From Sipunculus nudus (taxonomy: Eukaryota; Annelida; Sipuncula; Golfingiida; Sipunculidae), in assembly GCA_026874595.1 (NCBI GenBank), contig CM049321.1, positions 47,361,797 to 47,425,796 of the forward strand: DNA of 64,000 nt, read 5' to 3'. Numbering within the stretch: the first letter of the stretch is position 1; every line of letters starts with the position of its first letter. Below the pieces are notes generated by a model. It had not been told where the DNA came from, searched no databases, and saw only the letters and a list, made by a program, of their open reading frames with translations. Positions 9,119 through 54,053 of this stretch are shown here, piece by piece. The position numbers and the translations under genes are program-made.

Positions 9119-9119
<1 letters not shown>

Positions 9120-12722: not shown

Positions 12723-12754
12723 ATGTCGCGAGGGGGCCCCGCGAATTTCGCTGA
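12716..12754 (+). promoter_or_regulatory. Overlapping upstream ORF at exon 1a
   Basis: An ATG at 12716 lies 7 bases before the exon 1a start in another frame. It opens a 12-codon reading frame that stops with TGA at 12752-12754, inside exon 1a. If it lies in the mature 5' leader it would compete with the main start and could lower translation of this isoform. The effect is inferred; only the reading frames are seen. Confidence 0.5.
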
Positions 12755-12791
12755 TCTGCAGGCAGAGGTTTACTCTATGAATCCCACACAG
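12723..12791 (+). CDS. CACNB-like: Cav-beta calcium channel subunit, first coding exon 1a
   Basis: This 23-codon exon starts at an ATG in a good context (ACC before it) and ends in CAG followed by the donor gtaggg, in phase 0. An in-frame TGA at 12717-12719 shows that this ATG is a true start. The peptide begins MSRGGPANF and ends EVYSMNPTQ, which resembles the amino terminus of vertebrate CACNB1 (MSRGP near the start and EVFDPSPQ before the KRKG block). Cav-beta is a cytosolic subunit that binds the alpha-1 interaction domain of Cav1 and Cav2 channels and controls their trafficking and gating; alternative amino termini tune inactivation and localisation. Phase 0 matches the exon at 53973-54053. 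The splice is inferred because no transcript was available. Confidence 0.78.
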
Positions 12792-13121
12792 GTAGGGTTT
12801 ACGACACCTTATTTTGTGATAACCATATTAAAATGGACACTTTAATGAACCTCCCTAGGTCAGAATTAACCTTAACCAAATTAAACAGTAAATTTATAGG
12901 TATTCAATCACCATCTACCAACAAACTGCCGTTATTTTGACAACACCCCCTCCTTACCAGCTTACGATACGTTATTTGAAATAAACCATATTAAAATGGA
13001 CAAATATGATGGAAAAAATGAAAATGAATGCTTACCTAATGCAGTTTTGACTATGTAAATTTGCATGTAATCCAGCACCGTCAATATACAAATTGCCCTC
13101 ATTTGACAGCTAACCCCCACC

Positions 13122-13150
13122 CCCCCCCCCCCTACACCCCCCCCCCCCCT
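13122..13150. repeat. Poly-C tract
   Basis: Two C runs separated by TACA in otherwise ordinary intronic DNA. Confidence 0.85.
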
Positions 13151-14146
13151 CCTGCCACACCCCTATTTTGACACAATGTAAACATACCCACATGTTTAAA
13201 GGGGAAGTACTTACTCACGCCCCTGTATGATGTGATTGTACTCACTGTGAGTAAAAACCCTTAACGCTCATCACTGCACAAGACCATACGCCTCATAAAG
13301 AACTTGGTGTTCCCTCAGACACCTGGCTCGTATAATGTATATCTTCTACCATTCAGAATGACATGCACTGTAGGAGCTGTTAACCTATATATTTCTTTGA
13401 GGGGGAAAACACGCTTCAGGGGCAATTGTCTATTTGTTATATGTTGAGTGCTGTAGTGTTTGTATGTTATTTATTGGTGGTTCTGTCGTTTGCATAGTAC
13501 GGTTAACAGTATCTTTAAATATATTTGTCATACAGGCAAATTACAGGATTAAACTAAAACATCATTTAATTTTGTTTTTATTTTCATCTACAGAATCAGA
13601 ATAACAGATAATAAATATGTGGTTTTCTCCATTTATCAGCTGTTTATCTCAAATAACGGACAAGCTTGTGTAATACAGTCAGATAGTTTTGTTGATATTT
13701 TATTATTTTCTGTCTGTGAAGTTGTGTAGCATCTCTCCTGTGACCACAGATTCTCCTGTTGAAATTGTAAAACATAAAACAATATCACAATGAATACTGG
13801 GTGTTTCTTTTGGAAATTTTATGCAATGATCTTAATATTATAAATATAAAGTATGTAATGTATGATAATGGGAAACATACAGATTATATAATGTGTGCTA
13901 GATTTTACTTAATTCAAACATGCAAATAATCACTTCTACATAATCTGATTATTTCAACAAGTTTGACTTGTTTAACTAGGTAATCCTGGTGTATCAACGA
14001 GAGACAGGGTTTGCATGCGACCCAGATAAAACCTAAAGCAGGACCAAAGCTTAATCCTTTCTTTGATTCTACAGCAGAAGTTATACACACATTTGTGAAT
14101 ATTGGTAGCAAGCCAAGTGGCTCTGAACTCACCATCCCTGTCTTAC

Positions 14147-14315
14147 CAGGGACAGATCTAGAATTTGAGAAAAGAAAGGGTCCATTCCAGGAGGACTAGT
14201 GATGAAACCTTTAAAAAGAGATAGAGTGGGAGGGGGAGTCCAGGCCACAAAAAGTGGTCTGAAATGTGTAAAAAAATTTGCTTTGGATGAAAAAGGGTGG
14301 GATGTGATGCACTCA
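14147..14315 (-). mobile_element. CAG...CTG MITE (family A), copy 2, truncated
   Basis: It opens CAGGGACAGATCTAGAATTT and carries CCAGGAGGACTAGTGATGAA and CACAAAAAGTGGTCTGAAA in the same order as copy 1. The far end does not match the other copies, so it is probably truncated or decayed. Confidence 0.6.
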
Positions 14316-14384
14316 CTTTTAACTCATGTTAGGGTGTGCAGAGCATATATCAGTTATCACTTTATTCAACAGGAACTATGAGTG

Positions 14385-14500
14385 ATACCCAGGAATCCTG
14401 GGGAGAAACCTGTTTTACCAAGCCTTGGTTTATCCAAAACCAGTAAAACCCAGGTCTTGTCCAGGTTTTGGGTAAAACCTACAAAACCCTGGCCAATTGG
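14385..14500. repeat. Fold-back repeat of AAACCTGGTTTTACC type
   Basis: Several degenerate, mutually inverted copies of GGTTTTACC and GGTAAAACC with AGGAATCCTGG-like spacers. A related short patch (AACCTGGG) is at 23345-23395. It may be the remains of a fold-back element. Confidence 0.45.
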
Positions 14501-15429
14501 GACACTGCTGTTATATATTTGCTTAATTAAGTGCTGTTCACTGACTGAGACAAGGTGAGACTTTTCGGTTTGTGGTGTCTGTCTCTGTAATTCAACAGGA
14601 TCAGTGCTGTTTGCCATGCAGAGAAACTGACATAAATTTATTATAATCAAAGTTCTGTGTATAATAATATTTAATTGCAGTGTTTCTTAAATTATTGTAA
14701 ATGGTCTTATGAACATAGCAAGTATCCAAATGATATAAATTGAAATTTGGCTGGCCAGACACTGTGCAGTGCAGAAGTGCTATCGCTCTTTGAATCATTG
14801 ATACTATCTACTCCAGTGGTATTTAGTTTGATAAGCTATGTAAATGATGGTAGCTTCTCACTCGTAATAAATTCTGATAGTGGTGGATTGGAATGTACGT
14901 ATATATATATATGAACCTGTTTTACAATATATTGTAAATTTACTCTGGTTGGCTTTTTGTTTGGGAAGGTATCAATTTTGTGATGTTTGAAAACAGGAAA
15001 TTATCACAAAAATAAAACTCTGTGAATAAAACACCAAACCTACAAAAAATATTGTACCTGTAGCCTAATCTATGACATTATACATATGTTATCCCTGCCT
15101 ACATCATCACAGATCTAGGATCAAAACTTAAACTATAACATATTTTATGTTATTCTTAATTAATGACTTATATTATTGATAATATCAGACTTATTTTGTC
15201 TACGAATAATGAAGAAGGAATTACCACTCGATTTTTTTCCCTTGCTTCTTCATCAAATAATTATAAATAGTTATAAATATACTGTGTTGGTTACTATATA
15301 TCATGAATTTGTGAATTTGAAACCCTCAATACAAATGAGAATTGCGAACAAAAATTAACCACACGAATATATAACCAGCACAGTATTGGCATGGAATGAT
15401 TTGAAATATGTTATAAATGAAACTTATAC

Positions 15430-15845
15430 TGCTGCCAAATCGGGCAAGTGACAACTAGCTTTCACTTGCTTTACATGAATTTTTACTTGTCCCACAATAA
15501 TCAAGGATCAAGGCCACAACCACAAAAAGTGTGATCCACATGATTACTTTGTAACAATATACATACCGGTATTCAAATGTTTCTTTGTCAATTATTTCTT
15601 CTCCTTAGAATTTGCACAGATAAAAACATGCAGATAAATTAAGCTAAAGGTATTTAAATATGATTTTACTTCCCCTGAAAAAAGTGGCTAACTTAAGATT
15701 AGTCAAAATTCAGGCCTTTTACTAAAGTTTTAGTAATGTTTATGTTGCAGTAGGAAGTAGGAAGCCACTTTTGGTTGCACTACAACCATTTTCTGGTACT
15801 TTGACTTGCCCAAGGCAAGTGTTTAACCAGTAATGTCGAGCCCTA
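15430..15845. repeat. Dispersed repeat F, copy 1
   Basis: It begins near TCGGGCAAGTGACAACTAGC and ends AAGTGTTTAACCAGTAATGT then CGAGCCCT. Shared internal segments (ACATGAATTTTTACTTGTCC, ATTCAGGCCTTT) match 19312-19905. The outer parts are loosely inverted relative to each other. Confidence 0.55.
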
Positions 15846-17580
15846 ATACATAAAAACAGTACTATTTATAATTGATCTGACTAGAATTATGAGCAGCTTG
15901 GGGCAACCACCATCGGTGTATAATCTGATATATAACTATTAGTGGCATACTAATCAATCCATTATATTGATGATTTGTTTTCTTTCATAATCTATCAAAT
16001 CAGTGGCATTTTTTGCATATATTTGATCATAAATTGATCATTTATCATGGATTATGCAAAAATGCCTATGTGTTAACATCCAAAGAAGTCATATTATCCT
16101 GATAAATATTCTAATTCTGTCAGATATGTAAGGAAGTAAGCTTGATGGGGCACTCAACAGCAAATTGCATTAAAGTTTATCCTTGTGCAACAAATATACA
16201 TGTATCAACAGCCCTAGTTGTGACCTTGACCTTTCAGCATAGTGTAACAGTTAAACTGTATTTACTGGGTCCACATTTCAGATTTAATTCTATACAGCAG
16301 ATTTCATGGAAATATAGATGGTACATAACATAAAGGATTGATAATAGGTCAAAGGTCAGAAAATACTGCATGGTATTAATTATCAATAATTAACAGTACT
16401 ATATATCACATTGTGAATATGTATCAGGATGGTTCACTCATGATATGGTATGTGAAATTATCAATCAATGCAATTATATATATAGAGTATGGGTACACCA
16501 TAGTAGCATTTTAAAATAATGTCAAACTGATATCCATAAAGCAACAGTTGGTTCATTAGTATGTTCAGCAGTTCACGCTTACCTCTGCAAGTTTGTATTC
16601 AGCGAGAGAGTTATAACTTCTAAGCATCCAATTACATCTGATTATCAAACGGAAGATATCAACCAGTATTTTCTTAAGGTTGATTATAAAATGAGAACTG
16701 ATTTCCAACACTTCTGCTTACATATTTCACGATTTCACCCCTGAAAGTCCAGCCAAAACAAGGTTTCTGAGTGAAGCTTTCAAGTTGTCATCTCGGGAAG
16801 TAGGCATGCATGGTATGTGGTTATACATATAAGTAAAGGATGTTCATAAGAGCAGGGTTCTGCTCCACTGAATCTTGTGTCAGAGTGCATCAGGTCAAAG
16901 GTCAATGGGATCAGCGAACCTTATTCCCTGCTTCTTGACCAGTCGGTACACCTGTAATGCATGGTTGATCAGTCATGCGTGGAGATTCTTCATAGGACAC
17001 CACAGGATGTTCACACCCTGTGTATATATAGGGATATACCCATTAGAAAACACCTTTCAGGCTTAGTGTGTATCTTGCTTGAAAAAAAAAAACACATTGG
17101 ATCTGCCGGAGATTTTGTTTTTAAAAGATACTACTCAAAATTAAACTAGGAAAGAAGCTTTTAAAGTTTACTTGATTTAATGATCTGGAAAATGGATATA
17201 TAAGTGAAGATATTGGATATATTTGTAATGTATATTTACTCAAGTATTGTGCCTGTTGACAGTGGGAATATATGCTGCTTGTGATGTTTTAATAACCAGT
17301 GGCTTAACAGCCAACCAAAGAGTGAATATTTATAAACCATTTTGGAAGTTAAACAAGACCTACAAGAGAGGACCGGATGACTTCCGGCACACAATTAAGA
17401 TTATACCAGCCATGCGCGTCTATAAGGAACTGTTACGTTATTGGTTGATGTGAGTTCTCACCACAGAAGGCGTTATTTTGTTGCTGTTTGTGATTTTTAT
17501 GGGTTACAGGTTGTTTCGAGAAGTATGTACATAATATGTTAAAAGGGCAGTGGAATATTACAGTATACAAGAAATTGAAG
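15846..17580. other. Intronic DNA before exon 1b, no gene seen
   Basis: AT-rich sequence. A 68-codon open stretch at 17247-17453 lies just before exon 1b but has no recognisable family and is followed by a stop. It could be leader DNA for exon 1b or chance. Nothing else was seen. Confidence 0.35.
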
Positions 17581-17640
17581 CCTTAAATAATCCTGCGAGT
17601 AGTGTACATATTAAATTTTAGAAAAATTAATTGTGTAATA

Positions 17641-17925
17641 ATGTCATCAAGGGGACAGTGGTCTGTACCTCAGGATACCTGGGCTGATGATGAAATGTCA
17701 TACTCTGAGATAGATAGTTGTAGAACGAGCAGCAGTGACGTCGATGATGATTTCTTGCAAAGATTTGCAATATTCAACCTTCAAGCTCAAATGCGGAGAT
17801 TATCATTACAGCAGCAGCAAGATCGCGCTGGTACCAGCCATCTTAATAACTTACAGGGAGATTTGTCCAGTTTATCCACTACTCTGACATCAAAAGTGTC
17901 ATACCGTCAGGCTGGAGATGGACAG
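17641..17925 (+). CDS. CACNB-like: Cav-beta calcium channel subunit, probable alternative first exon 1b
   Basis: A 95-codon open stretch starts at the first in-frame ATG after a TAA at 17584-17586 and ends in GACAG followed by the donor gtgagc, in phase 0. The peptide starts MSSRGQWSVPQDTW. It has an acidic, serine-rich segment (about residues 16-38), an RRLS protein-kinase-A-type site at residues 52-55, a QQQQ run at 57-60 and a serine/threonine-rich end. I recognise no homologue. It is assigned to Cav-beta because it lies on the same strand between exons 1a and 2, has the same phase, and the family commonly uses alternative amino termini. It could instead be the first exon of another gene. 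Confidence 0.6.
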
Positions 17926-18204
17926 GTGAGCACAATGAAAGCCATTATGACATAACAATTTTATTTTGTAAAGGCCATAGGGAAAATAAATTGACATATG
18001 TAATGCATATTACATTTCTTGGAAATATAAATATACCAGTATATCATGCATCTTTTCCAACATGCCTGCAAAAGAGGGAAATGTTCCATCCGACTTTTCA
18101 CACTTAAACATTGCAGTCGTGAACAAAACCAGTTCTGACCATGCTTGCCATACATGTGTGTTAATCGTAATCTTGATGCATCAGGGAACACAATAAATGC
18201 GCAT

Positions 18205-18330
18205 TTGTTAGTGTGTGCACTTGGCCATGGGGCATGTCCTTCCCATTTAGCCTCCAGCATGCTCACCCTTGGTGGGGGCCGAGTGCAAGAATTCTCACCA
18301 TCCTGGCTGAGATCCGAACTCACTTTCTGA
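18205..18330 (-). mobile_element. SINE family S, fragment
   Basis: The reverse complement matches the middle of the SINE at 35164-35572: TGAGTTCGGATCTCAGCC (B-box region) followed by GGTGAG, a CGGCCCCCACC-like segment and GGTGAGC. Neither end is complete. Confidence 0.6.
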
Positions 18331-18584
18331 TAAAAAAAAATTACAACACCCTTCATTATATGTGTCAGCAAGGTTCCCATTTGAGTACTTGGCATGGATT
18401 TAGCTGTACTAGTAGAATCATTTATTTACCAGTGGAGATTATCACTGCTTGGGTCATGCCCTCTCAGGGTTTGTTATAGAATTACATGAATGAACATTCT
18501 GGAAAAGTGAGCAGACAAGGAGGAACTGTTTAAAATTAGAAGAAATTATCAAACCTAAGTTCTCTTTTACTTCTTTATAGGTAA

Positions 18585-18776
18585 CAGAAGCGGGTCCAGG
18601 GGGTCCGGACCCCCCCTTTTTCATCAGAAACAACGTTTTTTAAGGGCTTCAGACAAAATTTTGCCGCCTGGACCCCCCCCCCCCCCCTTTTTCAGACCTG
18701 AGGACCTTTTTTTAGGGTTTTCATTTGTCCTCCTGGGTTGGACCCCCCCTTTTCTTGAATCCTGGATCCGCCCCTG
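18585..18776 (+). mobile_element. CAG...CTG MITE (family A), copy 3
   Basis: It starts CAGAAGCGGGTCCAGGGGGT and ends CTGGATCCGCCCCTG, flanked by a perfect 5-bp repeat GGTAA (18580-18584 and 18777-18781). The interior segments CATCAGAAACAACG and TTCAGACAAAATTTTGC are shared with copy 4. Confidence 0.8.
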
Positions 18777-18826
18777 GGTAATAGTAAATTAAAGTGTTAC
18801 AGAGGTTTCACTCACACAGCTTGACA

Positions 18827-19303
18827 TTAAAGGATTACCCAATCACCTACCTTCTGAAAAAGAATTTATACGATTTCTGGCTTCCTCTGTGTATATATTA
18901 ATGATCTAAGGTTAATTTTAGTTGTGAAATGTTCTTATAGCGCCTTCGTTAAGGATGTATGAACTTGTTTATCAACAACATGTTTGTAAACACAGCAATG
19001 TTGACAAATGGGGAAAAACATGTAACCTAAGGTGGTAGGTAGCATATATGGGGAGGTAAAAAGGTCACTTGTTGCAAAACGCAATTTGCAAAGCTCTGGC
19101 TTATCTGACTTGCTGCCAGATGCCCCCATTGTCGAATTTGTTTTAATTATTTTAGCAGGCCCAAACAAATAATAAACATGTTGATGTAAACATAACAAGG
19201 AGCCTGTGAGCTATGATGTCCACATTTTTTGGCCTATTTTTATGAAAGCTCAAAGGGGTTACCTTCAGTTTATATTGGTCAGATAGGTGATTGGGCCCCT
19301 TAA
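18827..19303. mobile_element. TTAA-flanked MITE, complete copy
   Basis: Inverted ends: left TTAAAGGATTACCCAATCAC, and the right end in complement TTAAGGGGCCCAATCACC. TTAA occurs at both borders, as expected of the target duplication of piggyBac-like or Kolobok-like transposons. It encodes no transposase. Partial copies lie at 1-125, 30004-30125 and 33640-33825. Confidence 0.65.
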
Positions 19304-19311
19304 ACTTTGAA

Positions 19312-19905
19312 AGTACTTGGCCAGTACTGCAATTGCCAGGTAGTTTTTACTTTTTCTACATGAATTTTTTACTTGTCCAGTCAACATCATTGACCTCAGC
19401 CACTAACACAAAGGGTGCTCCATATGTTTATGATTTTTTTTTATATTGCATGTCTGACAAGAAGAATGTTGGAAAGTTTATTTGTTTACAGTAAATCTCT
19501 TTAGTATCTCCACACCTAAACATACAGAAAATATGAAATGAAGAGGTATTATCAATAAGATTTTAATTCTCCAAGACAGAAAATGGATACAGAAGATTTG
19601 ATTAGTTTTATACCTTCAAAAAAGAAAATTGTAAACTGAAGATTAGTTGAGATTCAGGCCTTTGGGTTAAAGTTATGTTGGACCCACTTGCCAAGTTGGG
19701 AATCAGCCATGACAACATGACACTCAGGCCTTCGGAAATAAACTGATAGGGCCTGGACATCGTCTTCAGCTCATCTAAAATCGACGTTTGGGGTGACAAG
19801 CTGTCGCTAAGTTGGGAATACAAGCACAGTTTTTGTTGACTTACCACCATTTTCTGGAACTCTTACTTGCCTAGGACAAGTGGTTAACCATTAATGTGGA
19901 GCCCT
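19312..19905. repeat. Dispersed repeat F, copy 2
   Basis: It shares ACATGAATTTTTTACTTGTC, an ATTCAGGCCTTT segment and the end ACAAGTGGTTAACCATTAAT then GTGGAGCCCT with copy 1. It is longer because of extra sequence around 19675-19830. Confidence 0.5.
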
Positions 19906-20059
19906 GTTCAAGGAAATACAGTTGGGAATTGTGTACTGTAAGGTTGGACAAGCCTGACTGTCAGCTCCATGATTTCTGTACCTGGACACATGTACATGCA
20001 GGGATGTACCTGTACACACATAATAATAAAAATAATGATAATAATAATAATGACAAAAA

Positions 20060-20332
20060 AAGGTATGTTCTCAGGCACTTTTCATAAATCAGTGTGGGCA
20101 GGTGTTTTTTTATTACCTTTGTGTGTATGTTTTGATAAAAATGATCAGGAAAAGGCATGATAATAACATATTTTTTTCTAAAAACAGGTAAAAGCACTAC
20201 ATACCAAAGGAAAAATTCTCAAAATTGTACTAATAATAAATTTTAACTTCTTGAAAGAGGGAAAAATCAAAATAAAAATGCTTTGATGCGGGGGGTTTAA
20301 ATTGACATGGGCGGTGCCTGAGAACCATACCT
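20060..20332. mobile_element. MITE family D, copy 2
   Basis: Left end AAGGTATGTTCTCAGGCAC; right end in complement AAGGTATGGTTCTCAGGCAC. The interior matches copy 1 throughout (ATGTTTTGATAAAAATGATC, GGTAAAAGCACTACATACC, GGGCGGTGCCTGAGAACC). Confidence 0.72.
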
Positions 20333-20935
20333 TTTATTTTTATTGGCCTTATACTAGATAGTATTTATAAAGTGCTATCTGTAATAGACAGACCCACAGA
20401 ACAGTTCACACACACACTCAAACCTACTTAAAAAAGATAATTTCATGGGTACCATCTCTATGTCCTTCTCCCTAAACCCATTTTCATTCTCACCATCTCT
20501 TGCATGTTTATCCAATGTAACATATTTAAGAAACACATAATTGATATTAATGACCAGAAAGCTTGCAGAAAGAGAACAGATTTTAAATTGGTTTAAAATT
20601 ATGTAAGAAGGAAGGAATGTTCACCAAGTTTCATATTACAATTTGGTGCTTTAAGATTTAGACTAGCTGAAAGCAAAGGGTCATAGTTTATTATTTTTTC
20701 AGAAAATATATGATGGAATAGAGCCATCTAAATGATAGTAAATAAAAATATTTGGGATTTTGTAATGTATATTGTACTTAACGGGAAGCCAAAAAAACTG
20801 TTTGAGCAGTGGCTCAATATGGTCAGTCCTACACTTAAGAAACAGGCGCCCAGTATTTTTCTGAACCATCTGCAACCACAAGACTTGCTCTGCAGGTAAC
20901 CTGGCCAGCATGAACTGGTGTTACATATGGGGGTT

Positions 20936-21008
20936 TACCTGTACACATGTATGGGGCTGAACCTGTACACATGTATGGCACTCAACCATAACACATGTAT
21001 GGGGGTGT
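20936..21008. repeat. Minisatellite, about 3 units
   Basis: Three imperfect units containing ACACATGTATGG at roughly 25-28-base spacing. Confidence 0.7.
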
Positions 21009-21520
21009 TGATGTACCATACCATCGTTTTGTGTGACACCTGCACTGTCATGATTCATGCGTCATAAGCTTACTGTGAATCACGTCACAGAGTTTGTAGT
21101 GTCATTGTTTGTTTACATCAGTGCACTCAATTACCTTACCTAAATGGGAAATTTGTTTTATTTACTCATTATTACAACACAATAATATCATTCAGGTATC
21201 AGGTGTTTCATTGTTACTGGACACTCCCATTTCTATACAGTATCTGTCATGTATGGCTTTAAATAATGCTGGTACTGTTTACATTAAAATCCTATTTGGT
21301 TTTCATTGAGGTGTCAGTTAAATGTTTCATGACCCATTTAAATGATATTTGGTGAATGATATTTTATATAAACAACACTAATATATCGGTCTGTATTGAT
21401 TCCTGTTTTTATCTGTCACATTTTACTGGTGAAAGAATTTGAAATTAAGTGAAATATGTGAAATATGTGAAATAAGATCACTCGTAGGACTCACCAAAAG
21501 TGGTCTTAATTCATTGGTGG

Positions 21521-21955
21521 TCTGGGGTGAGTTTCAAATACAGTGTGCCAAATATAAATATAAATACGATAGCTGGTCTCCTCCAAATACAAATACCATT
21601 GCAAATATGCAAATATAAGTTACGTAGAATATTTATTTATTTCCAGCACCATAAGTATTCAAAATATCTAAGGGAGAAGTGAAACGCTTGACGTAATGCT
21701 GTCTTTTAAGGTTGTTAAGAAGTTAGGCAGTTGTTACATTTTTAAAATTATGGCAGATATGAATGTGTATTTATACATATGTATTTGTACAGTATTTGAT
21801 CAAATACATCAAATATTGAGATCAAATACAAACACAAATATTATCATTTTGCACAACACAAATACAACTATAAATACACATACATACTTTTACTGTATTT
21901 AAATACAAATACCAAAAAATATGTATTTGACCCCAACCCTGGCTTGGTCATATTA
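21521..21955. mobile_element. Fold-back MITE rich in AAATAC
   Basis: Inverted ends: left TCTGGGGTGAGTTTCAAATA, right end in complement CCAGGGTTGGGGTCAAATAC. The interior is a degenerate series of AAATACAAATAC and its complement, which could fold back extensively. Confidence 0.5.
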
Positions 21956-22579
21956 GATAGGTTGGTTATAACCAATGTGACTGCTTTTGGTTCACTCAAG
22001 GTTTGCCTTAAAAGACAGGTGGTCTTTCAGACAGGTTCATCTCAACTGTTATGATTACCATGACAGCCACCTCTTTCTATAAATAAAACACCAGAATTGG
22101 TGCTGTTAGTTTTTTAATATGTAAACAATAGTGATATTTGTCTTTGCTGGTGTTAACTGTATCTATATAATCTCTGTATGTTTCAGGCATGAGCTTTTTC
22201 TGCGGAATTCCAAGATTTTTAGAAAAAAACTGATGGTTCCTCCGATAAGTCAAGATTTGTAATTAATTTTGGTCAATTAGGCCACCTGCGATTCGCAGAA
22301 CTGAAGCCAATCAACGCCCCTCCTTGATGTTTCTTCTGCTACTGTTTTATATATGCATTAGTACACTTGTCACAGAACTGTTCATGAACATCATCATCAT
22401 TCACCATGACTACACCATCACTTAGCCATACATGATGAGTGTCAGTATGGCTGTCTGGTTAGTCATTAGGAAAAACGGACTACAATGTTGTGCAGGTATA
22501 TACTAATTTACATAATGATCACTGAATGTGTGTTTAAAAGTGTTGAAAAGGGTACTCCTGTCCAGGTACTTGCTGAGTA

Positions 22580-22793
22580 CAGAAGCAGATCCATGGGGGG
22601 TCAAGGGGGACCGGAACCCCCTCCCCCCTTTTTTCATCAGAAACAACGTTTTTAAGGGGCTTCAGACAAAATTTTGCGGCTTGGACCCCTCCTTTTCCAG
22701 ACCTGGGGACTTTTTTTAGAGTTTTCTTTAGTCCTCCTGGGTTGGAACCCCCCCCCCCCCCCCCCCTTTTCCTAAATCTGAGATCCGTCCCTG
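22580..22793 (+). mobile_element. CAG...CTG MITE (family A), copy 4
   Basis: It starts CAGAAGCAGATCCATGGGGG and ends GATCCGTCCCTG, flanked by a perfect 5-bp repeat GAGTA (22575-22579 and 22794-22798). It has the same layout as copy 3, with a long C run near the end. Confidence 0.8.
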
Positions 22794-22849
22794 GAGTACA
22801 AGTGTTGCCCACACTGTTGGGAATCATTTGTAATTTCATGATCAATCAT

Positions 22850-23960
22850 CAGTAAAAATCAGGTGTCCTCAGCAGACTGATAATTGGAATTAATCGGTTG
22901 TATAGAAGTATGACTTTTTTTACCACAAACAGACCAATACACTGTTCCGGCTGATCGATATTCAGGCCTACATGTTTGCTAATGTATGTGGTAATTCTAT
23001 AACATATATGTTGTCGTTAACTTGGGTATGAAGTTGTTAGTAAACAATGACTCTTCTAGATTTTGCTCACATTAATTAATTAATTTCAAGCATACATTTT
23101 GATGAATAACAAAGACCATCTGTAATCTTTTATGGCACTGCAAGATTGATGATAAAATCATTTTACACCAACTGGCTGATCAGTGATCATAATTGGTCAT
23201 CTGCCAATCACTACTGAGTACTCAAGTAAAAAATTTGGACTCTACCACTTGGTCTATATTTATTTGTTACCTATGCTAGGGTCTTGCATGATAAAAATTA
23301 ATAAACATTTGAAAAGCATGGGTAAACTCTGGATAAAGAATTTTAACCTGGGTTCCACCAACTGGCTTAAGTAAAATCGGTTTAACCTGGGTCAGATGCA
23401 AACCCTAGATGTACCTCGTAACAGGTAACATGACATGTTTGCCATAACAGGTGATGTTATGTATATATATTACCTGTACTTGGTACTTGTATGCCTGCAG
23501 TGATAGACATTGTAATATTTAGCCCTCATCAGGGAAAGTACATCAATTAACCCTACATATGATAGGCAGAACACACCAGGGGGCCCCCTGGCATGGATAC
23601 GCTCATATATACAATGTATGTACATATGTGTGTTGGCTACTTGCATGTACCTCCAAGGTATATAGGGCGGCAGGAACGTAATGTAAACATCATTACATCT
23701 GCATGGAGAGTGTCAGATGGTTAACACGTCCATGTTGGTCTAAGCATGCCATGCCGGTTCCATCCTTTCTCTGACACCTTAATGAATTTTTTTTACTGTT
23801 CACTTTTGATCATAAAACTAATGATTAATTGATAATTCTTATATCCTACAAGATCCTGACATCTATTTATATAGATATATATTGGAGCTATATATGGAGC
23901 TTTATTCTTTAGCTTTAAGTACTGTTACCTCCCCCAGGAAGTTTAATGCTTTTGCCAGCA
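22850..23960. other. Intronic DNA, nothing recognised
   Basis: AT-rich unique-looking sequence. A short GAAGCGGATCCGG segment near 23970 resembles the outer end of MITE family A but has no partner. Confidence 0.4.
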
Positions 23961-24039
23961 TAGGTTACAGAAGCGGATCCGGGGAACTGATTATTCCACA
24001 ATATAGTCCAGAGCAGAAGTACTAAAGGAATAATGCCAG

Positions 24040-26221: not shown

Positions 26222-26229
26222 TATAGATG

Positions 26230-30125: not shown

Positions 30126-30219
30126 AAAGTATTGTAAATATCTTTTAATATTGCCTATAGAAATCCCTGACTGATAGATTATCCTTCGATATATCCTGTA
30201 AAAACATCATAAACTAAAA

Positions 30220-42360: not shown

Positions 42361-42832
42361 GCGGCAAGCTCGTTTTTTGCTAAGGGACTTAGGCTGGGGA
42401 TACAACAGACCATAAAAAGTTGAGTAGGCAGGAGGTGTGAAAAACTGTGCTTCTCCGGTCCGTGTAGTCCCTTGCTAAGCTTTAATCAGGTTGGTTTTAA
42501 AATATGGCGTTGATCTTTGTTCCGGTAGTCATCTAGGCCTCGAGCACTACCATTAGCATATATGTTGAGTTTATGTGGGCCTTTGTTATTTACTCACAAA
42601 TTCTATTGGCCAGAATATTCTGTTTATCAATCATTTATCTGAATGATCATTTATCCGAACAAAAAGTGTGTCCCCAAGGTTTTCAGATAAACAACGTTCT
42701 GCTGTATATGTTATATATGTAGTATTTAAGGGGGGGAGGAGCTGGTCAGTTAACTGTTGTATTTCTGTATGTATATAAACTTGGATTTCGCTGGATTTGT
42801 TTGGAGCAGTTCTGCAAGTATTCTTTGATTGT

Positions 42833-42849
42833 GGGGGGGGGGGGGGGAG
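42833..42849. repeat. Poly-G run
   Basis: About 16 G in GTGGGG...GGAGG context. Another poly-G lies at about 46319-46333. Confidence 0.85.
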
Positions 42850-43124
42850 GTGTTAGGTTATCATATCAGTATGTAACATGTTAAAGAAAGGGAAGAAGAG
42901 AGACTGTTTCGCAGGAGCAAATAGTGGTAAAATGGATAGAGAAATTCTAATTCCCCAAAAGATGCTGAAGTTCAGTCATTTTACTAGGAATTGATGAGTT
43001 CACACAAAACCTATGCCAGAAAAATTCTCCTGAATTTTCCTGTGATTTTCACATATCACTGCCCTGATATGTCATTTCACATATCACTGCCCCATATGTC
43101 ATTGCCCTGACCCCAATCTGGATT

Positions 43125-44010
43125 GGTAGTCCAGAACAAATCCCGTTCGGGATTTAGTCTGGCCTAAACCTTGATTGGGATTTTGGCTGGACCATTGCTC
43201 GACCAGATTCTGACCGGGACTTGGTCTGGACTAAACACTTATTGGTTTGGACAAATTCCCGATTGGTTCAGACTAAATCCCATATATCCCTTGACCAGTC
43301 CAAACCCTGATCAGGATCTGGTCCAGCCCAGATCCTGATTCAGACTGTGATTTGACTTAATACTAAATGATGCCTACAGAACATACTTCTGATTAAATTA
43401 AGGAAAATTCACCTTATTTCAACCTACTCATAAACTTAAATCTAATTTCATCATGACAAAATTTAATTTACGCCAAGCCAAACTTTGAAACTTAAGAGTT
43501 AGTTTAAGAGTTAGAACATGTGAATATGATACCTGACATGAATTAATTAATGGAATAAAAGAATACTACGGGCTTTTGTTGGACAACTTAACCTTTGTAA
43601 AAATTTGAAATATGTTTAACTTGATGAATAAAACTTTTTTTCTGGTGTATGACCTACATGCATCATGTATGTATGAATCAAATTAATTAAATTCTGTTTC
43701 TAAAATATACGAGAACATTTGATGAATTATTTATATAAACAATTTTACATGATGATTAATGTGGACATGAAGTCAGCAGGCAGACAGGGTTATGAGCTGG
43801 ATCAGGGGTACGGGTAGCTATAACCTTCAGCTGATTAGACAGGAGGTCAATCACTTAGTTATTAATTGAAGATCGGGATTTAGGCCGGACTGAATCCCAA
43901 TTGTGGTCTGGTCTTGACCACTTCCGATTTTGTCCAGACCAGATCCTGAATGGGTTTTGGTCTGGACCAATCAGCGATTGATCCAGATTGGGATCTGGGC
44001 CTTTAGATAT
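43125..44010. mobile_element. Fold-back element of GGTCTGGACC words
   Basis: Two arms (43125-43350 and 43865-44010) consist of degenerate, mutually inverted copies of GGGATTTGGTCTGGACCAAATC around about 500 AT-rich bases. The words are themselves near-palindromic. No transposase was seen. Confidence 0.5.
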
Positions 44011-44289
44011 ACACTGACTGACACTATGTAACACCACAGATACAAAATTCTATTAGTGATTTTTCTCACTTTTACTCACACATGAAAACACAGCTTTAGG
44101 GTGAAGGTACTGTGTGTAAAGTACCAGCACTTGTGAATCAGTGTCAGATGCCATGCCTCACTTGGTGTATGTGTGCCAGGATCATTTTGGTGTCAGCAGT
44201 GGGATGTCATGTGGATGATTTGTCATCATCATGTCACCCTTCTTACACCATGGTTATTGTAACAGGGTTTGAGTAGGACAGATTGTGTG

Positions 44290-44415
44290 TTTGTGGTGGG
44301 GTCAGTTAGAGAGAGAGGGAGGGGAGAGGGGGAAGGAGGGAGGGAAAGAAAATAATAGAGAGAGAAAGGAAATGAGAGGTAGAGCTGAGGATTAGAGAAG
44401 AGGAAGGGTAGATTG
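44290..44415. repeat. Polypurine tract
   Basis: About 120 bases almost entirely A and G (GAGAGAGGGAGGGGAGAGGG and similar). It has triplex potential; no gene context. Confidence 0.85.
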
Positions 44416-44780
44416 AAATCCAGTCAGACATATTTTTGAAGGAGGAAATGAGTGTATCTCTCTTAATCCAATATTAAGTCCTTTCTTTAAAAAATGTTGG
44501 TACTGTATTATATAATATGGAGTGTTTTGCATGTTCCTTTACTTTTTTCCCCAGTTATTTTGCCCCTGCCTAGTTCTCTTATATATTTATGTTACAATAG
44601 ATGGGAAAACTCCTTTTCAGTAATTGCAACCGCCAGAAGGGTATACTATGCATTCGCTTCAGTGTATGTTTGTGTTTGTTCACGACATAACTCATGCAAT
44701 CTGAGGATCAATTGGAATCTCATTAAAATTTCAGGGCATTTAGGGAATGGGCAAGTGAAGAAATGATAAGATGTTATTGT

Positions 44781-44964
44781 GGATCCGGTATGTGATCCAG
44801 ATTCAGTAACTTTATTCAGGAATATTCACAAATGTATGGTCACTTATGCATGATGAACCTGGGAATATGGGCCAAATAAATGAATACAAACACGGGCTTG
44901 GGAGCATCCCATAATAGAGATCCCCATTGGCGGAGGCTTGCATTCCTTAGAATGCAGATTTCTA
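44781..44964 (-). repeat. Dispersed repeat B, copy 3
   Basis: Reverse complement of copies 1 and 2: GGATCCGGTATGTGATCCAG, CAGGAATATTCACAAATG, GCTTGCATTCCTTAGAATGC. Confidence 0.7.
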
Positions 44965-44995
44965 GTTCATATGTATTAATATATCAATACAAATA

Positions 44996-46270
44996 CAGTG
45001 AAAACTGGTCTAACGGACACCTCACTTAGGCAGACAACTGGCTATAACGGACAAGATAGTTAAGTCCCTTCAAAATTCCTATATGTTATGCATAAGCGGA
45101 ACCTCTGTAAGGCGGACACCTCCCTTCTGCGGACAACGGACAACTCAAACCAACATTCTAAGAGTAAATGAACCTGACAAATGCGGACACCATACGGCAC
45201 CTTCGTGGACACTGATCACTCGCACTGGGTGACATCAAAGACCACCTGTACTGTTGTTGTGCCTGGGACTGGAACACAAAGGATTATGCAATGCCCACTT
45301 GTTGCCTTAATGCGTGTCCATGCTCATGTCACAAAGTGATGTGCTCCGAAGTTAAACACAGCAAATATGAAGCGATTAACATCGTGTGACTTTATTTCAC
45401 GGTTGATCATTCACACGTTGCGAAGCTGCATATTTTCGCTCGACCGCAGGGTCATTAAATTGATTAAAGCTACCGATTACCCATGCGTCCCTGTTCTCAC
45501 CACGCAGTATCTTACTGTAAAATGAGCCACTTTGTTATAGCAGGCTGTTTGATATTAATTTATCGGTTTTGCTCAGTATATCTCAAACTGATCTGCTCAG
45601 TGTCAAACATCTGCTCCCTCCGTAGCCGTTTGTACCACGCCGCTGTGCACAGGCTGCTCGGGGTTCTTTTAATCTCGAGTGCCTTCAACGTTAAAGCAAA
45701 TCAAACCAAACAGCCATAATCAAAGAAATTTTATTTTAGGCTAAAGGTACATTCACCTATAAAGATGAATGTTCCCAGGTTCATAGCCATTACAATCTTC
45801 GCATTATCAATGCCGTCATTATCTTTGAGATTATCGCATTTGGACAGCTGAATGAAGACAGTTTTAGGCAATGCCGCAGGGTGGCACCACACGTACTCCT
45901 GGGCGGGAGCTTATGCTATCTGAGAAAGTCAAGCTTATTGGACTGAGTGAATCAGCAAAAAGAGCATACGCGAGCATATGAACATTGTTTTTATGGATGT
46001 CTTCATATTCTCCATATATTGATGACTTGAGATAAGTAAAAATAATCACAGTTTGTATATGAATATTGAATGCAGGATGTGTGTATGAATATGTATTACA
46101 TATACATGAAATCTGATATAATACAATTAACTCATCCTTGCATCTGTTCGTTGTGTATATTTATAATCCCTCAGTTATCAACCAAGGTCTTCCTGCCTAA
46201 TAAGGACACCTCACTATTATGGACAAAATGATAGAGTCCCTTGACTGTCCGCTCTAGACAGGTTTCACTG
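44996..46270. mobile_element. 1.3-kb TA-flanked transposon remnant
   Basis: Left CAGTGAAAACTGGTCTAACG and the right end in complement CAGTGAAACCTGTCTAGAGC are inverted and bordered by TA (44994-44995 and 46271-46272). The repeated words GCGGACACCTC and GGACAACGGACAA lie inside both ends. The interior includes a 78-codon ORF at 45483-45719 without a recognised domain. It is probably a non-autonomous pogo/Tc1-like element. Confidence 0.6.
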
Positions 46271-47209
46271 TATATACATCTGTTGTTTGTGTATTAAGCT
46301 TGATGCAAAGCAAGAAGAGGGGGGGGGGGGGGGATGGAGCAAACCCGTACCAGTACTACCAAAAGTAACCATGGGCAAGAATGAATGTCACATGGGGTCT
46401 GCAGCCTCTGATCAGGGGCTGTGGAGCTCGCTGGGCCACCAGTGCTGGCTTTTATGGATTTAGGGCCATTACGGGAGAGTAGAGTAGTTTGCTGTGAACC
46501 TGAATAAGGCAGAGCCCTCTGGATTTTCTATTCATTGAGTTAGGGGCCCCGCTGTGGATTGATGACTTTGGGAAAGTTTGATACACATTAATACCATGGG
46601 AATGGCTGGTTTATTTAACGTCCCAGGTAAAACAAGTGAAACAACAGATAAAGATCAGTATTAAACAGACCAAAGATACATACAGGATCGTTTTATATCT
46701 GCTTGGAGACAACTCCCCTGACTGGGAGTTTTGGACTCACAGAGTGGTTCACATTATCTAGCCCACCAACATGTCCTGGCGCCTATAATATATTCATGAA
46801 TATAAACGTACCGCTGGTTTGATCCATAAACATAGACTATTAATAGTGCGTTTGATTCTGTAGAGTCTCAAGGTTTTAAAATTTTTTGCTTTCTTGTGGA
46901 CTCTTACATTATTAAAATGGTTGACATATGATTGTGGTAATTGGGGTTGTGCATATATTATAAGAATCAAAATTCATGCTGGTACAGGATATAGTCTGAT
47001 GTTTAATTAGGTAGGGTTGTAATGATTTACCGGTGAACGGATAATCACAATACAAAGTCAAATAGTGTATCAATATTGTGAGATTACACTCTATGACTGT
47101 GTGACCAGTCTGACATATAACTAAAAAGCTCTGGTATTTAAAACATGGGCAACAGCCATCGCATGTGAGGAAAAACATTTTAATCCAGAAACCAGCTAAA
47201 ATTGGCATA

Positions 47210-49990
47210 GGATTGGCGAACTATCACATGATTAAACCAAATGAAGGGATTGTTTCCTTATTCATTACATCTTAATAGGGTCTATTTTGATATCTAACAT
47301 TTATAAACTAAAGATACTCAATTGACCCTTTTATAAAAATGCCAAAGGCCAGAAAATGCGAATCCTACTGCTCATAGGCTGTTCTATTTTGCTCATATCC
47401 ATGTGCTTGTAACATGGGGGGGGGGCACCAAATTAATCTAAACACATTCAATAAAGACATCTGACAGGAAGTCAGGTGCACAAGAGCTTTTGAAAGACCA
47501 TTTGCAACTAGTGAAATTTCTGCACATATGCAACCCTCCACCTCAGATTATGTGGATTTTCCATTTGTCAACTTTGCAGTGTTTACTAACAGCTTGTGTA
47601 TAAACAAGCTCATACATCTGTCACAGAGGCATTATAAGAATGTCCTCCCCAAGAATTACCTAGAATTTATAAATATGTACATGTATAGAAGAAGCCAGAA
47701 ATCTCATAAATACTATAGAAAATAAAATAATGTACAGTATTTGGAATGAAATATGCAAGTATGTACATGAACAAGGTTTATTCTACTATTGCTGTTTATA
47801 ATTGCATTATTGGAGGATCTGATAAATTACAGCAAGTACAGTAGTTAACCTTGTACCATGTCTGGACTGCTACTTGTTGCTGACAGCATGCTACCAGGTA
47901 GTGAGTGACTGCCAGAGGTGTTGAGTTGGCTGTCAAGCACCAGTACAGGCTGCCAGTAACTGGTAACGGGATGAAGAAAACTTGTATCAGCCGCTTTATA
48001 TGACGTCATCTTGGCCATGCTCGCAGGTTGCTTGTTTTCTCTTCATGTGGAACAAAACACACACTTTGTTGTCTTTATAGTTCATGCTTCATAGCTGTCA
48101 ATTTATCTGACCTAAATTGGGGTCAGTGATTGTTATACTAGCATGCAAAAGCTCAGTTCAGATCCACAAAATGCGCTACAGGTGTACATGGGTTTGGTGG
48201 GCTTCCAGACGTGTAGTGATGTCAGGCCTTGTTAGCCGTGATTAGTTGTTGAGTACCTAGTGCTATAAAGATGAGAAATCCTCCACAAATATTTGTTGGT
48301 TGGTGCTGAAGATTAAAGGGATACCCTTAATATTCACCATATGCTGATGTTGCTTTCTTTGCTGCATAATAGAACTTTAGAACACTGTTTCAGGTTCTGT
48401 TGCTGCCAAATATAAATTTACAACAGAATTTATAGTGTCCTTTTCATACTTTTGAGCAAACTTTAATTTATGGAGAAATAGTTCAGTTTTACATTTTACT
48501 CTTGAAAAGTCATCTTCATGGATTCACATGGAATATTTTGCACAAAATTTTGGAACTTCACATACTGGTACCTGTGAGTTACCTGTTACAAAGTACACAC
48601 TTATACATATACAGGTCTTGGCGTACACTGATGTCCAGCTGTTAACATTAGTTCTGGTCTCTCCAGTCTGATTGCGTAAGTGGCCACACAGCCCTGCGTC
48701 TGCGTGATGAGGCTGATGGCGTCCCCTCGACCCCTGCTCAATATCCCATATGGATATATATAGAGAGAGACATAGTGTTTTCTGTAAAAGTATATTCTTC
48801 ATTAGCAACCAGGTCCTTATTTATATTTCTTAGAATAGTAGAGTATCAGGTGGGCCTCTTTGTTCTCTGTATGTACATATATGCCATGATACCTTACTTT
48901 ATTTAATTTTCCAGTTATTAATCATTTTTCAGTTGATAAATTAAGATCTACATAGTATAATCTAAGTTTATTTCACATTTCAAGTTAATTATAATTCGTG
49001 AATACGTCACAATTAGTATTACTGATAAAGTGTTGTGTGAGCTATCAAGCAAGGTATTATTTATTGTTGAGCTTATAATAGTCTTTGCTTAATAGGCATT
49101 TTAAGAGCAGACAGGAAACACACATTTACTCTGAAGTGGACAGATAACGATACCAGCATCAGCCTTGTAGCCCTTGTTTCGTTAAGGTCCTCACTCACGC
49201 CTCTAGAATGTATATGTATACTGGGATGGCATTGAAAAGGTAGTCGGTGTCAAGTGTCAAGTCGAGAAGTGTCAGGTCAATTCGGAGGTGCCAAGTCTCA
49301 AGTCTCCTGTAGCCTGCTGTCTTAATATATTTTAGTGTATGTGCATGGTGCGAACCTGTACGGCTTTAATATATTGATTAAACATCGTCTTAACGTCTGT
49401 CTGGAGTTCGAGTTTTCATGAAAGAACCTGCGAGTCGGCAACCCCTGACATACCTGTAAAGCTGACAGACAAATGACGAGAAGGGACATGAAAGAAGAAA
49501 CACAGGATAAACACCTGTTTGAAGCTTTATAAGATTTGATTAGCTAAGTTGTGGTGTACGGCACTATGTTTATGTTTTCTGCCACTGATCGCTCCTGTTG
49601 CAAGTTTATTTCACTCAAGTACATGTATGAGTAAGCAGATGGATTTATATTGCCAGATATCATAATATTTTAAGGAGAATATGCTATATTACTTCATGTA
49701 TATTTCACATATCTGGTATGTGAGAAGGTCCTGTTAAAGACAGGGATGGAACACTCATGTACATGAAGTTTGGTGACTCTGACATGGACGCTGTATTAAA
49801 CCATAACCTTTAAGGACTGTTAACTGGGCAGGATATATTAAGTTAATGGTAATATATAAAGTGGTGTGGTTTATATTATATATAGAGGGAAGAATCTGAT
49901 TAATTATCAGGTACATAATGTCTTGCACTTGTTAAGATGTGGTCAGGCATAGTCAAAATTAAGCTATGTGTGCCATATATAGCCCACCAG
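47210..49990. other. Intronic DNA, nothing recognised
   Basis: AT-rich sequence. A pseudo-exon with decent splice signals at 48615-48675 has stops in all three frames. No repeat family was recognised. Confidence 0.4.
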
Positions 49991-49997
49991 AGTGTAT

Positions 49998-50000
<3 letters not shown>

Positions 50001-50060
<60 letters not shown>
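50001..50060. repeat. (TA)n microsatellite
   Basis: About 30 uninterrupted TA units. Confidence 0.95.
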
Positions 50061-50064
<4 letters not shown>

Positions 50065-50975
50065 AATGCATAATGGAGAATGTGGGGGTCGTCATTTTGT
50101 TGACATATGGCTTTGGAAATTTAATGGCATCCAACCTGAACAATTGACCTCACAACCAGAGCCCTTATGCCGAGCCCTTTTTAGCCCCAAAAACGCTCCC
50201 ACACAAAAGGTCTTCCTTCCGAGAGCTGTTTACAGTACAATAATGACATCACAAAGGTTGATGACGTAGACTTTGCATTGACTATCGCCATCAACTGGAA
50301 TTGCTGCACTGATTAATATATTGCAGTTATTAAGTGTCTTGCAATAATTTGGATTATATTGTCTCATACAATTTATGTGCCATGCAAGTAAGACATTATT
50401 ATTCACTCAGTAGTCTGAGGAATGGCTGTTGCAACCTTTGGCCTAGAACTTTATATAATGTCTCCTTTGTATAAAAAATATCCTGGAAAACATGCTAACA
50501 TGGGCACTGTTAGTGTTACAGACTACACATGTTCTGTTAGGGAGAGCTCTCCCAAATTATGCAAAATTTATTTTTGTCAGGTGACTGGCAGTTTACAGTA
50601 ATATCTGCGACCTGATTGGCTGCATGGAACAGTTATGTTCATTCTTATTCATTATATGAATATGCTATTAAGGTCACGTAAAGTTCATGATGAGGTCAAT
50701 TGGTAAAAAATGTCATTTAAAAATAAAGGACACTGTCAGGTACTGAGACAAGCACTCGGCTGTACTATGGTTGGCTTCATATTCGTGAGAGTCTCAAATT
50801 CACAATATTTCTGAAATCCTATTATAATTCGCAGATAAGGGTAGGGTCACCCTAAAAACATTACTCCATCTTCTACTTTAAAAGAGGAGGGTATAATAGC
50901 CACCAAACTTTCCCAATAGATATAGAATTCCACCTGGAGACTAAATGTCCTCGGAGCACTTTCTTATCACATTTA

Positions 50976-51049
50976 CATGCCCTTATCACATCCCGATCTC
51001 ACAATAATTCTGAAACTGCTCACAGGGGCTGCCATTTTGCATACAGACT
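50976..51049 (+). repeat. Dispersed repeat C, copy 4
   Basis: CCCTTATCACATCCCGATCT and CAGGGGCTGCCATTTTGCAT match copy 2 at 9705-9785 with moderate divergence. Confidence 0.5.
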
Positions 51050-51099
51050 AAAATCCTGTTGTCACTAGTCGCATGTCAGTATTAAGGGTTTACTGATTT

Positions 51100-53210
51100 T
51101 GGTTATAATATTAAAGGATAAGAATAGCTTTATGAAGAAGACACCACACAGCCGAGCTATTACTGTTTATTTTATTATAATTACTAATTATCATTTTGAT
51201 GTACAAGTTTTAATGAAATATCCACTATCACCATCAACCTTTATTGTGCATGCTAATATGGTTGGCCTTGGAAAGAAAGCACAGATAATTATATTGTCTA
51301 AACACAAATTACTTGTTTTTATGGATAAAAATTACAAATTAATAAGGAATATTTTCATTTTGTATTAATGTTTATGAACCTATTTTGTACTATATACTCT
51401 TTGGAACTTTTCTGTTGGTTGGATCATGAAGTTTTCATCCTGATATTGGTGTTTATCATATTAATTATGAGTGGGCCTATATGGTCTAAAAGGATCAACT
51501 TGATATTTTACAATATATGCAGACTTCATTATAAATAATACCATAGACAGAATAGATTAGTCTATATATAATTTACACTGAATGGAAATGTTCACAAAAC
51601 ATGTATGCAAATCTGTATTGATTTAGTGAACTTCATCTTTGTGTCAGACAACTGCGCCATCTGTTGGACATGGTGAGACTTACACAGGAGTCTTTCATTG
51701 TAATTAAATTTGAACCATACCATATGGATCACACAGTGTAGAATAGGACTTGCAAGAGTACAACTGCTGGTTATGGTGTGTGGGCTTAAAAAAATGCAAC
51801 CCATTATATGAATACACAGCGGGGCTTCTTAATATTCCATAAGTGTAGGTATACATTTAGTGAAAAAGATGTCGTAGTATGTTCAAATATGTTGGAAAAG
51901 AATTGTTTCAAGGCAAATTATATAAACATGTGTGTTTATGCAGTAAGGACTTTACAATATAAGTAATATTTTGTGAAATGTAAACAGAAGGTGTTTCCTT
52001 GAAATGTAACAAATTTTGATTTTTAAAAGATTGACAGTTCTAGTCCCAGCTGGTGCAATCACTGCCTAACTGGAAGAGGTTCGTTTTGAGTAGAACAACC
52101 TCTGGTGGAAGGGTATACTGTGGTTGCCTTTTTGTTCGCGAGGGTTTTATTTTCACAATATTTGCGAATGGGAAATAATCGCGAAAAAGAAACCCTCAGG
52201 AATTATAGACAATTTGAGTATGACCTTCTTATTTAATGTAGTCAATACTCGTATGGGGATAGGTTAGAACAGTGAGAAGTTTTAAAATAAGTTACATCCA
52301 TGCAGATATTGGGAAAACGTTCCCTTAAATTTGAACTAAACGATCTGTGCTGTGTGTACGGGCCCATCGTTATATGAGAAGAATATCACAAACTCATGAC
52401 TTATTCTCATTTTATAATACACACAGGTGTGGCTTTACCAAAGATTTGATATAGGTTCTGGTGAGATCGCGAAAATGAAATCCTCGCGAAACATAATCAA
52501 ATGGAGAAATCGCGAAATTTCAGCCTCACTAAGAATATGAGGCCAACCACAGTATATGTCTATGTCAGACATCGAGGCCATCTGTTGGTCATGATCAATC
52601 TTACAACCCAAGTTGATTATAATCACATGATCACTTAAGAATAAAACTCTGATAGCTGATAGCTGTTGGAAATTATGAAACATATGAAACCCTAACTATT
52701 TGGTTGAAGAACCTAACAACAGATTTCTTAGATGTTGAAAATGAATATTTGTTGGAATTTATTTTTATCTGCATTGATCATTCCAAATAGTTCCAGTATT
52801 ATAATTGCTAAATGATGAAAATTAATTAAATAACCTGATAGCTTGGTCCACTGTATCTTTTGTGGTCATTGATACAGTTTATTCAGTTACTTATTCTTTA
52901 GGCTGCTACCCAGCTCCCTTTCAACAGAAAATGTTCATTTTTACCTTAATTAAGCAACAATAATCAGGATGCAAGTCTGCAGACTGGGCGCATTAATGTT
53001 CACAGATGCTCCTATTTATAAACATTCTGCATGGTGTTACACTTATAATACAGTGTGTGTTTGACACAGTGACAGTTATTTTCCCCACCCTCCCCCACAA
53101 AAATGTTCATAGACAGAATAATTACAAAGAAACCAATTTGGCTTCAAAGAGAGTTAATTGATTGTAATAATATAAATCTGTTCAACAATATCATTATCTT
53201 AATTTTTTGT
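51100..53210. other. Intronic DNA, nothing recognised
   Basis: AT-rich. Several ORFs of 65-90 codons lack splice context and family similarity. Around 52090-52560, loosely inverted words (TCGCGAAA, GGCC.ACCACAGTAT against ATACTGTGGTTGCC) suggest a further decayed inverted-repeat element. Confidence 0.35.
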
Positions 53211-53215
53211 TTATA

Positions 53216-53394
53216 CAGTGAAACCTCGAAATTATTACCACCAGTGGTACCTTGATAAAGTGGTTGTATATCCGAGGTGGTCACCAAAGCAAGGTCATGT
53301 GTACTAGCATAAGAGAATCTGGACTGTAAACATGTGGTAGTTATTTTGAGGTGGTCACCAAACAGAGGTGGTGGTTAGCTGGGGTTTTACTCTG
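53216..53394. mobile_element. Small pogo/Tc1-like MITE
   Basis: Starts CAGTGAAACCTCGAAATTAT and ends AGCTGGGGTTTTACTCTG, with inverted GAGGTGGTCACC words inside. TA precedes the left end. Length is 179 bases. It lies about 580 bases before Cav-beta exon 2. Confidence 0.65.
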
Positions 53395-53972
53395 ATACCT
53401 TAATGCCAGCCTCAAACAGGAGCACCTATCCACAGAAAAATAATATAAATTGTATTCATTGAGGGGGGACCATTTTTTTCACTGATTCTTAGCTATTCTG
53501 ACCTGCAATTGGCAGACTGTTGACATGAATGAAATATGGCCAAAGCTATCAGAGACAAAAATCTCCAAACATCTGAGAGAAACCAGCGACTGAAATATTG
53601 ATGTCTAGTGTCCCTCAATCTTAAAAGCAGTGAGCTGCGTTTTTATTTAAGCGACGGAGCCAGGTTAGAGAATCGTGTTGGCGGTTAGATACTTCCATCT
53701 GATCAGCTGATAGCCACGGGGCTGTCTGACACGAACAGCAAATGCTGCCTGATGGGAACACGGAAGGTTAGTTCATTATCACGGGAGCCAGGGTTTGTTG
53801 ACATTAAAGGGTCAGAGTATTTTGGCTGGAGATGCAGTGGTAATCAATATATTTGGGATGCTGGGGGATAGTCCTTCTCCCAGCTCTGGTCATCACTGTT
53901 CTGGTCTGTATTACAGCACTGTCTCCAGTCTGATGCAGCATTTTACTAATACCTTGTTTATTTTCATTGCAG

Positions 53973-54053
53973 CCTGCCAAAACAAAGCGAAAAGGCAAGT
54001 TCAAGAGGTCTGACGGTAGTTTCTCTGATAGTTCGAACAGTTTTATCCGGCAG
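53973..54053 (+). CDS. CACNB-like: Cav-beta calcium channel subunit, exon 2 (KRSDGS block)
   Basis: This 81-base, phase 0 to phase 0 exon follows a pyrimidine-rich acceptor (ttattttcattgcag) and is followed by the near-consensus donor gtaagtg. Its 27 residues begin PAKTKRKGKFKRSDGS and end SNSFIRQ. Vertebrate CACNB1 has KRKGRFKRSDGS and SNSFVRQ at the same place, immediately before the conserved GSADSYTSRPS segment and the SH3 domain. This match is the firmest gene identification in the window. The exon lies about 41 kb after exon 1a and 36 kb after exon 1b. The following GSADSYTS exon was not found before the window ends. Confidence 0.9.

Follow-up and report, generated by a model that had tools for sequence, protein, structure and literature searches.

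A candidate second first exon in the large 5′ intron of a Cav-beta gene of Sipunculus nudus

Introduction

Alternative first exons that carry their own ATG and are separated by very large introns have been published in the Cav-beta family, as described in the excerpts of two papers (PMC2365960, PMC3972191). Here, we describe the 5′ end of one Cav-beta gene within a 64-kb stretch of Sipunculus nudus contig CM049321.1 (the window; 64,000 nucleotides in full), where a first coding exon, 1a, and a second coding exon, 2, flank an open reading frame, 1b, that may be an alternative first exon.

Among the described systems, the snail Lymnaea stagnalis provides a close counterpart. According to the excerpted text of PMC3972191, the A N-terminus of LCavbeta is encoded by two upstream exons (1a and 1b), which together supply 50 residues and a block ending in FIRQ, and isoform B begins from a mutually exclusive downstream exon (exon 2) of 47 residues. 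The two snail N-termini show no measurable electrophysiological difference, with tissue expression differing between them (PMC3972191). The same source, published in 2014, places the N-terminal choice before the split of molluscs and vertebrates, reports the molluscan A-type N-terminus, and describes beta2a as carrying a cysteine pair.

A figure legend of PMC2365960 states that human CACNB2 joins either of two first exons, 1A or 1B, to exon 2A; the passages of that paper drawn on here describe alternative first exons with very large introns between them, possibly under independent control. For the CaVbeta of the sea anemone Exaiptasia, the N-terminus is described as setting the inactivation voltage, and swapped N-termini shifted inactivation strongly (PMC10617991, in excerpt).

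The A-type start of the gene

Exons 1a and 2 and the candidate exon 1b (Table 1) lie exactly where the initial annotation had placed them; all of their boundaries are phase 0, also as it had stated, and a GT donor follows each. Exon 2 is preceded by a pyrimidine-rich TTGCAG acceptor, the simple score of which is attained by 0.6% of the 3558 AG sites on the + strand, and is followed by a GTAAGT donor with the top score among the 7118 GT sites of both strands. In the same ranking, for which the scoring weights were assumed values, 0.13% of sites attain the score of the 1b donor and 0.67% that of the 1a donor. The 1a ATG has an in-frame stop two codons before it and no earlier in-frame ATG. The CpG observed/expected ratio around 1a is 0.80, compared with 0.45 for the whole window, just under the 90th percentile of 801-base slices, and hints at a promoter at 1a. 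A short upstream reading frame overlaps the 1a start codon; if transcription starts ahead of this frame, and only then, its ATG could reduce translation of the A isoform.

Table 1. Features at the 5′ end of the Cav-beta gene (positions within the window)
Feature	Coordinates	Strand	Description
Upstream reading frame	12716-12754	+	12 codons; overlaps the 1a start codon
Exon 1a	12723-12791	+	First coding exon; 23 residues, phase 0 donor; reads MSRGGPANFADLQAEVYSMNPTQ, then GTAGGG; first half of the Cav-beta 'A' N-terminus
Candidate exon 1b	17641-17925	+	95-residue open frame, phase 0 donor GTGAGC; unproven alternative first exon
Exon 2	53973-54053	+	Second coding exon; 81 nt (27 residues), with a phase-0 boundary on either side; reads PAKTKRKGKFKRSDGSFSDSSNSFIRQ; conserved KRKGKFKRSDGS...FIRQ block; counterpart of exon 1b of the Lymnaea paper

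When joined, the 50 residues of 1a and 2 align over their full length with vertebrate CACNB1, in agreement with the initial annotation of a Cav-beta gene. By phmmer, the matches are the CACNB1 chains 6jpa_C (E 3.3e-5) and 7vfs_D (E 2.2e-4), followed by a third and last match to an unrelated protein (E 0.87). The bulk of this signal is carried by exon 2, which contains the conserved KRKG.FKRSDGS...F.RQ block and scores 84 against the CACNB1 block (permutation p 0.0002). The likeness of 1a alone to the CACNB1 start, which had also been proposed, is modest at the sequence level: the permutation p against the CACNB1 exon-1 piece is 0.003, a value that depends on MSRG and becomes 0.12 when MSRG is removed from both.

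That likeness is firmer because intron position and phase are common to both genes. Exon 1a aligns with CACNB1 residues 7-28, its last residue, Q23, pairing with residue 28 (Q); the P that opens exon 2 lies opposite residue 29 (G). In the excerpted text of PMC12963491, the acceptor of CACNB1 exon 2 is at c.85-1 and Gly29 is the first exon-2 residue, so the CACNB1 junction is phase 0 and falls after residue 28, between codons 28 and 29. The two introns therefore fall at the same place, provided that the chain follows the numbering of human CACNB1. We regard the identification of 1a and 2 as a real Cav-beta A-type N-terminus as secure on these sequence comparisons, with the splice between them predicted. 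There is nothing unusual about the gene or its 1a-2 start, and both, like the idea of an ancient N-terminal choice, were already known.

The candidate exon 1b

Candidate exon 1b sits inside the 41-kb intron between 1a and exon 2, 36 kb upstream of the latter. Its ATG, with an A at position -3, is the first after an in-frame stop 19 codons upstream. No other ATG frame of 90 codons or more, on either strand of the 64 kb, reaches a donor that equals or surpasses that of 1b. Such a frame arose in 4, 5 and 5 of 200 shuffles at orders 1, 2 and 3, respectively, and in phase 0 in 1, 1 and 4 of 200; frames of at least 95 codons with such a donor occurred at a mean of 0.033 in 30 first-order shuffles and 0.05 in 20 second-order shuffles. 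It has a start codon, a phase-0 donor and a location in the large 5′ intron. We regard 1b as plausible in the role of a new alternative first exon and lean towards accepting it as one.

The predicted 1b peptide is net acidic (13 acidic and 8 basic residues), rich in Ser and Gln, and has a single cysteine at residue 27, with an amino-acid composition score of +8.1 bits for the 95 residues. An RRLS motif at residues 52-55 resembles a PKA site and is a putative one. There is no second copy of 1b in the window, as a self-blastn of 17200-18400 at E 1e-3 matched only itself, and 1b is thereby ruled out as part of a repeat within the window. A shadow of an antisense gene is likewise ruled out, with stops in all three reverse frames; no Pfam domain was found on the minus strand in the three frames of 12001-26999. 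Residues 62-81 of 1b can be aligned with 1a (p 0.003 by permutation, in a set of five tests), a chance-like result that we do not take as homology.

Other observations weigh against 1b as an exon, and several favour a rival reading, in which it is a chance open frame in the first intron of a gene that has only the A start (1a-2) and perhaps a B exon outside the window. The thresholds used for the shuffles were chosen on 1b itself, and under relaxed settings the window is unremarkable: for a donor of 8.9, three frames were observed against 2.0 expected at 40 codons, and one against 1.15 at 60 codons. Open ATG frames of at least 95 codons are not rare, starting at 18 of the 2820 ATGs (both strands, nested ATGs counted separately). 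The frame has no three-base periodicity, its period-3 power of 0.58 (mean 0.81) being attained by 54% of slices, and its TESTCODE value of 0.605 is ordinary (attained by 41% of 1275 slices). By per-residue amino-acid composition, the 122-codon stop-to-stop stretch that contains 1b ranks 11th among the 86 stretches of at least 80 codons. The CpG ratio around 1b is 0.55, just under the 75th percentile of 801-base slices, and is little evidence for a promoter there.

Searches for relatives point the same way. No likeness was found between 1b and the CACNB1 exon-1 piece (permutation p 0.12), and a PDB search with 1b returned no relative up to E 10. A Pfam search with the 1a, 1b and exon 2 peptides gave just a sub-threshold NuA4 match to exon 2 and none for 1b. 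Scans of IMG/VR and GTDB contigs with 1b produced 8 and 102 pattern matches, respectively, of which 0 were confirmed, a null that says almost nothing because neither collection holds animal genomes. Nor does phase help: eight phase-0 ATG-to-donor frames (at least 15 codons, donor at least 8.5) occur on the + strand, including 1a and 1b, and since the other six, all shorter, look like chance, a shared phase proves little. Against the reading of 1b as a chance frame stand its length and donor strength, matched in just 4-5 of 200 shuffles, and we consider that reading rather unlikely. The observation itself stands, with 1b as an exon unproven.

Proposed alternative promoters and the possible partner of candidate exon 1b

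Given the published family pattern of alternative first exons with very large introns, we favour alternative promoters, with 1b as a second start. In this model, which we hold to be probable, though by no means assured, 1b is a second, independently promoted first exon of the Cav-beta gene, spliced to exon 2 or to the next exon. The upstream start would yield the long-known A-type N-terminus through 1a joined to exon 2, and 1b, most likely a second first exon with its own promoter within the intron, would provide the other. Transcripts from 1b would be joined in phase 0 either to exon 2 or, if that is skipped, to the next exon beyond the window, to give a beta subunit with an N-terminus of 122 or 95 residues as opposed to 50. 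The site of transcription start would then decide the isoform. Transcription of 1b, the choice of its partner exon, and an effect on tissue expression and possibly on steady-state inactivation are predictions of this model.

The initial annotation had held that 1b fits exon 2. In phase it does, but a common phase does not show a join. As exon 2 is 81 nt long and phase 0 at both ends, its inclusion or skipping keeps the frame, and because either join is in frame the fit cannot tell a 1b-2 join from a 1b-3 join. It is therefore conceivable within the favoured model, although we would not expect it, that 1b is a true first exon that skips exon 2 and joins exon 3, as B-type starts do. According to PMC3972191 (in excerpt), a transcript has either a B-type N-terminus or the exon pair, never both, and the excerpted text of PMC12963491 reports CACNB1 transcripts whose first exon comes after exon 2. 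However, the published B-type starts, as far as these excerpts describe them, follow the FIRQ exon, and 1b precedes exon 2. Exon 3 was sought by tblastn with a piece of the Cav-beta core (N-terminal/SH3), which gave stray matches only and none after exon 2; the best of these had an E of 0.39 and stop codons inside. Neither tblastn with this piece nor Pfam found the SH3 and guanylate-kinase core between exon 2 and the window end; the core, too, would be located past 64000. The exon that follows FIRQ was not found in the window and thus presumably lies beyond 64000.

Exon 1b might also be real coding sequence of a different gene or transcript that lies within the intron, or encode a separate small protein. 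Its frame remains open for nine codons past the donor, to a stop at 17953-17955, and its junction to the Cav-beta gene is a predicted one. Yet no Pfam domain was found on the + strand from 17641 on, in three frames with 47400-49000 omitted and with the power for exon-sized domains uncontrolled, and we judge a nested gene or small protein improbable. The + strand scan, in three frames, covered 2601-17599, 17641-32639, 32401-47399 and 49001-63999 (omitting also 1-2600 and 17600-17640); that of the minus strand covered, besides the three frames given above, one frame of 36001-50997, with no positive control for exon-sized domains on either strand.

Comparison with known Cav-beta genes

The A-type start resembles that of Lymnaea LCavbeta, as excerpted, in its two A exons, 50-residue N-terminus, FIRQ block and large introns, and we equate exons 1a and 2 with Lymnaea exons 1a and 1b by length and block, not by letter comparison. 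Candidate 1b differs from the snail B start: at 95 residues it is about twice the length of either snail N-terminus as described, and it lies upstream of the FIRQ exon, whereas the 47-residue B start lies downstream. It is thereby ruled out as the published Lymnaea B exon. The initial annotation had suggested that the choice between 1a and 1b may predate the split of vertebrates and molluscs. An origin of N-terminal choice before that split had already been published (PMC3972191, in excerpt), and that part is not new; as a choice between 1a and 1b the proposal reaches too far: nothing shows 1b outside the window, and 1b is unlike the CACNB1 start. The molluscan alternative in that text is a different, 47-residue exon downstream of the counterpart of exon 2. 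A literature text search with five peptide strings gave no match.

Vertebrate CACNB1 shares with the window gene, in its exons 1 and 2, the MSRG start, the intron position and phase, and the KRKG.FKRSDGS...F.RQ block. Unlike 1a, it has six residues ahead of MSRG, and unlike 1b, its second start, in the excerpt of PMC12963491, is downstream of exon 2. Human CACNB2, a vertebrate paralogue, offers the arrangement proposed here, with two first exons sharing one second exon, according to its figure legend. The lone cysteine of 1b contrasts with the cysteine pair of beta2a.

The Exaiptasia CaVbeta is, like the proposed window gene, an invertebrate subunit with alternative N-termini of differing length, a likeness drawn from its description in the excerpt of PMC10617991. 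The earlier statement that N-terminal variants change inactivation holds for the sea anemone channels and not for the snail channels tested (PMC3972191), as far as the two excerpts report. Should 1b be transcribed, this molluscan-type Cav-beta gene would gain a third kind of start. That start would allow a direct test of whether inactivation in molluscs responds to a long N-terminus, as in anemones (PMC10617991), or is left unchanged by it, as described for the two snail forms (PMC3972191). We offer, as a speculation that we ourselves doubt, that 1b represents a third class of Cav-beta N-terminus in some invertebrates, neither A nor B, which could control inactivation in a way absent from the two published molluscan isoforms.

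Repeats and other features of the window

Within the first intron, 18610-18749 and 22623-22753 are paired repeats bounded by C-runs (CCCCCC...GGACCCCCCC) and 78-91% identical. Further downstream, identical 300-base copies occur at 38211-38510 and 39032-39331, 821 bases apart, and probably belong to a more extensive tandem duplication of recent origin; a near-identical pair of ATG-to-donor frames at 38685 and 39506, also 821 apart, accounts for two of the six chance-like frames mentioned above. A tandem array at 41381-42397 has a 238-base unit, with 99% matches over 41684-42338 and GC-rich subunits of about 23 bases, and the long open frames that it produces on both strands are probably not genes. 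The array at 40037-40283 is tandem as well, with a GC-rich unit of 63 bases that TRF counts at about 3.7 copies over 40037-40265; its GCTGCGG motifs resemble those found in the 238-base array. Lastly, a 118-base inverted interspersed repeat is found at 35237-35354 and 62888-63005; near one arm is a weak tRNA match on the minus strand (35498-35569; E 0.02, 30.7 bits against a gathering threshold of 29), which may represent a short repeat derived from a tRNA.

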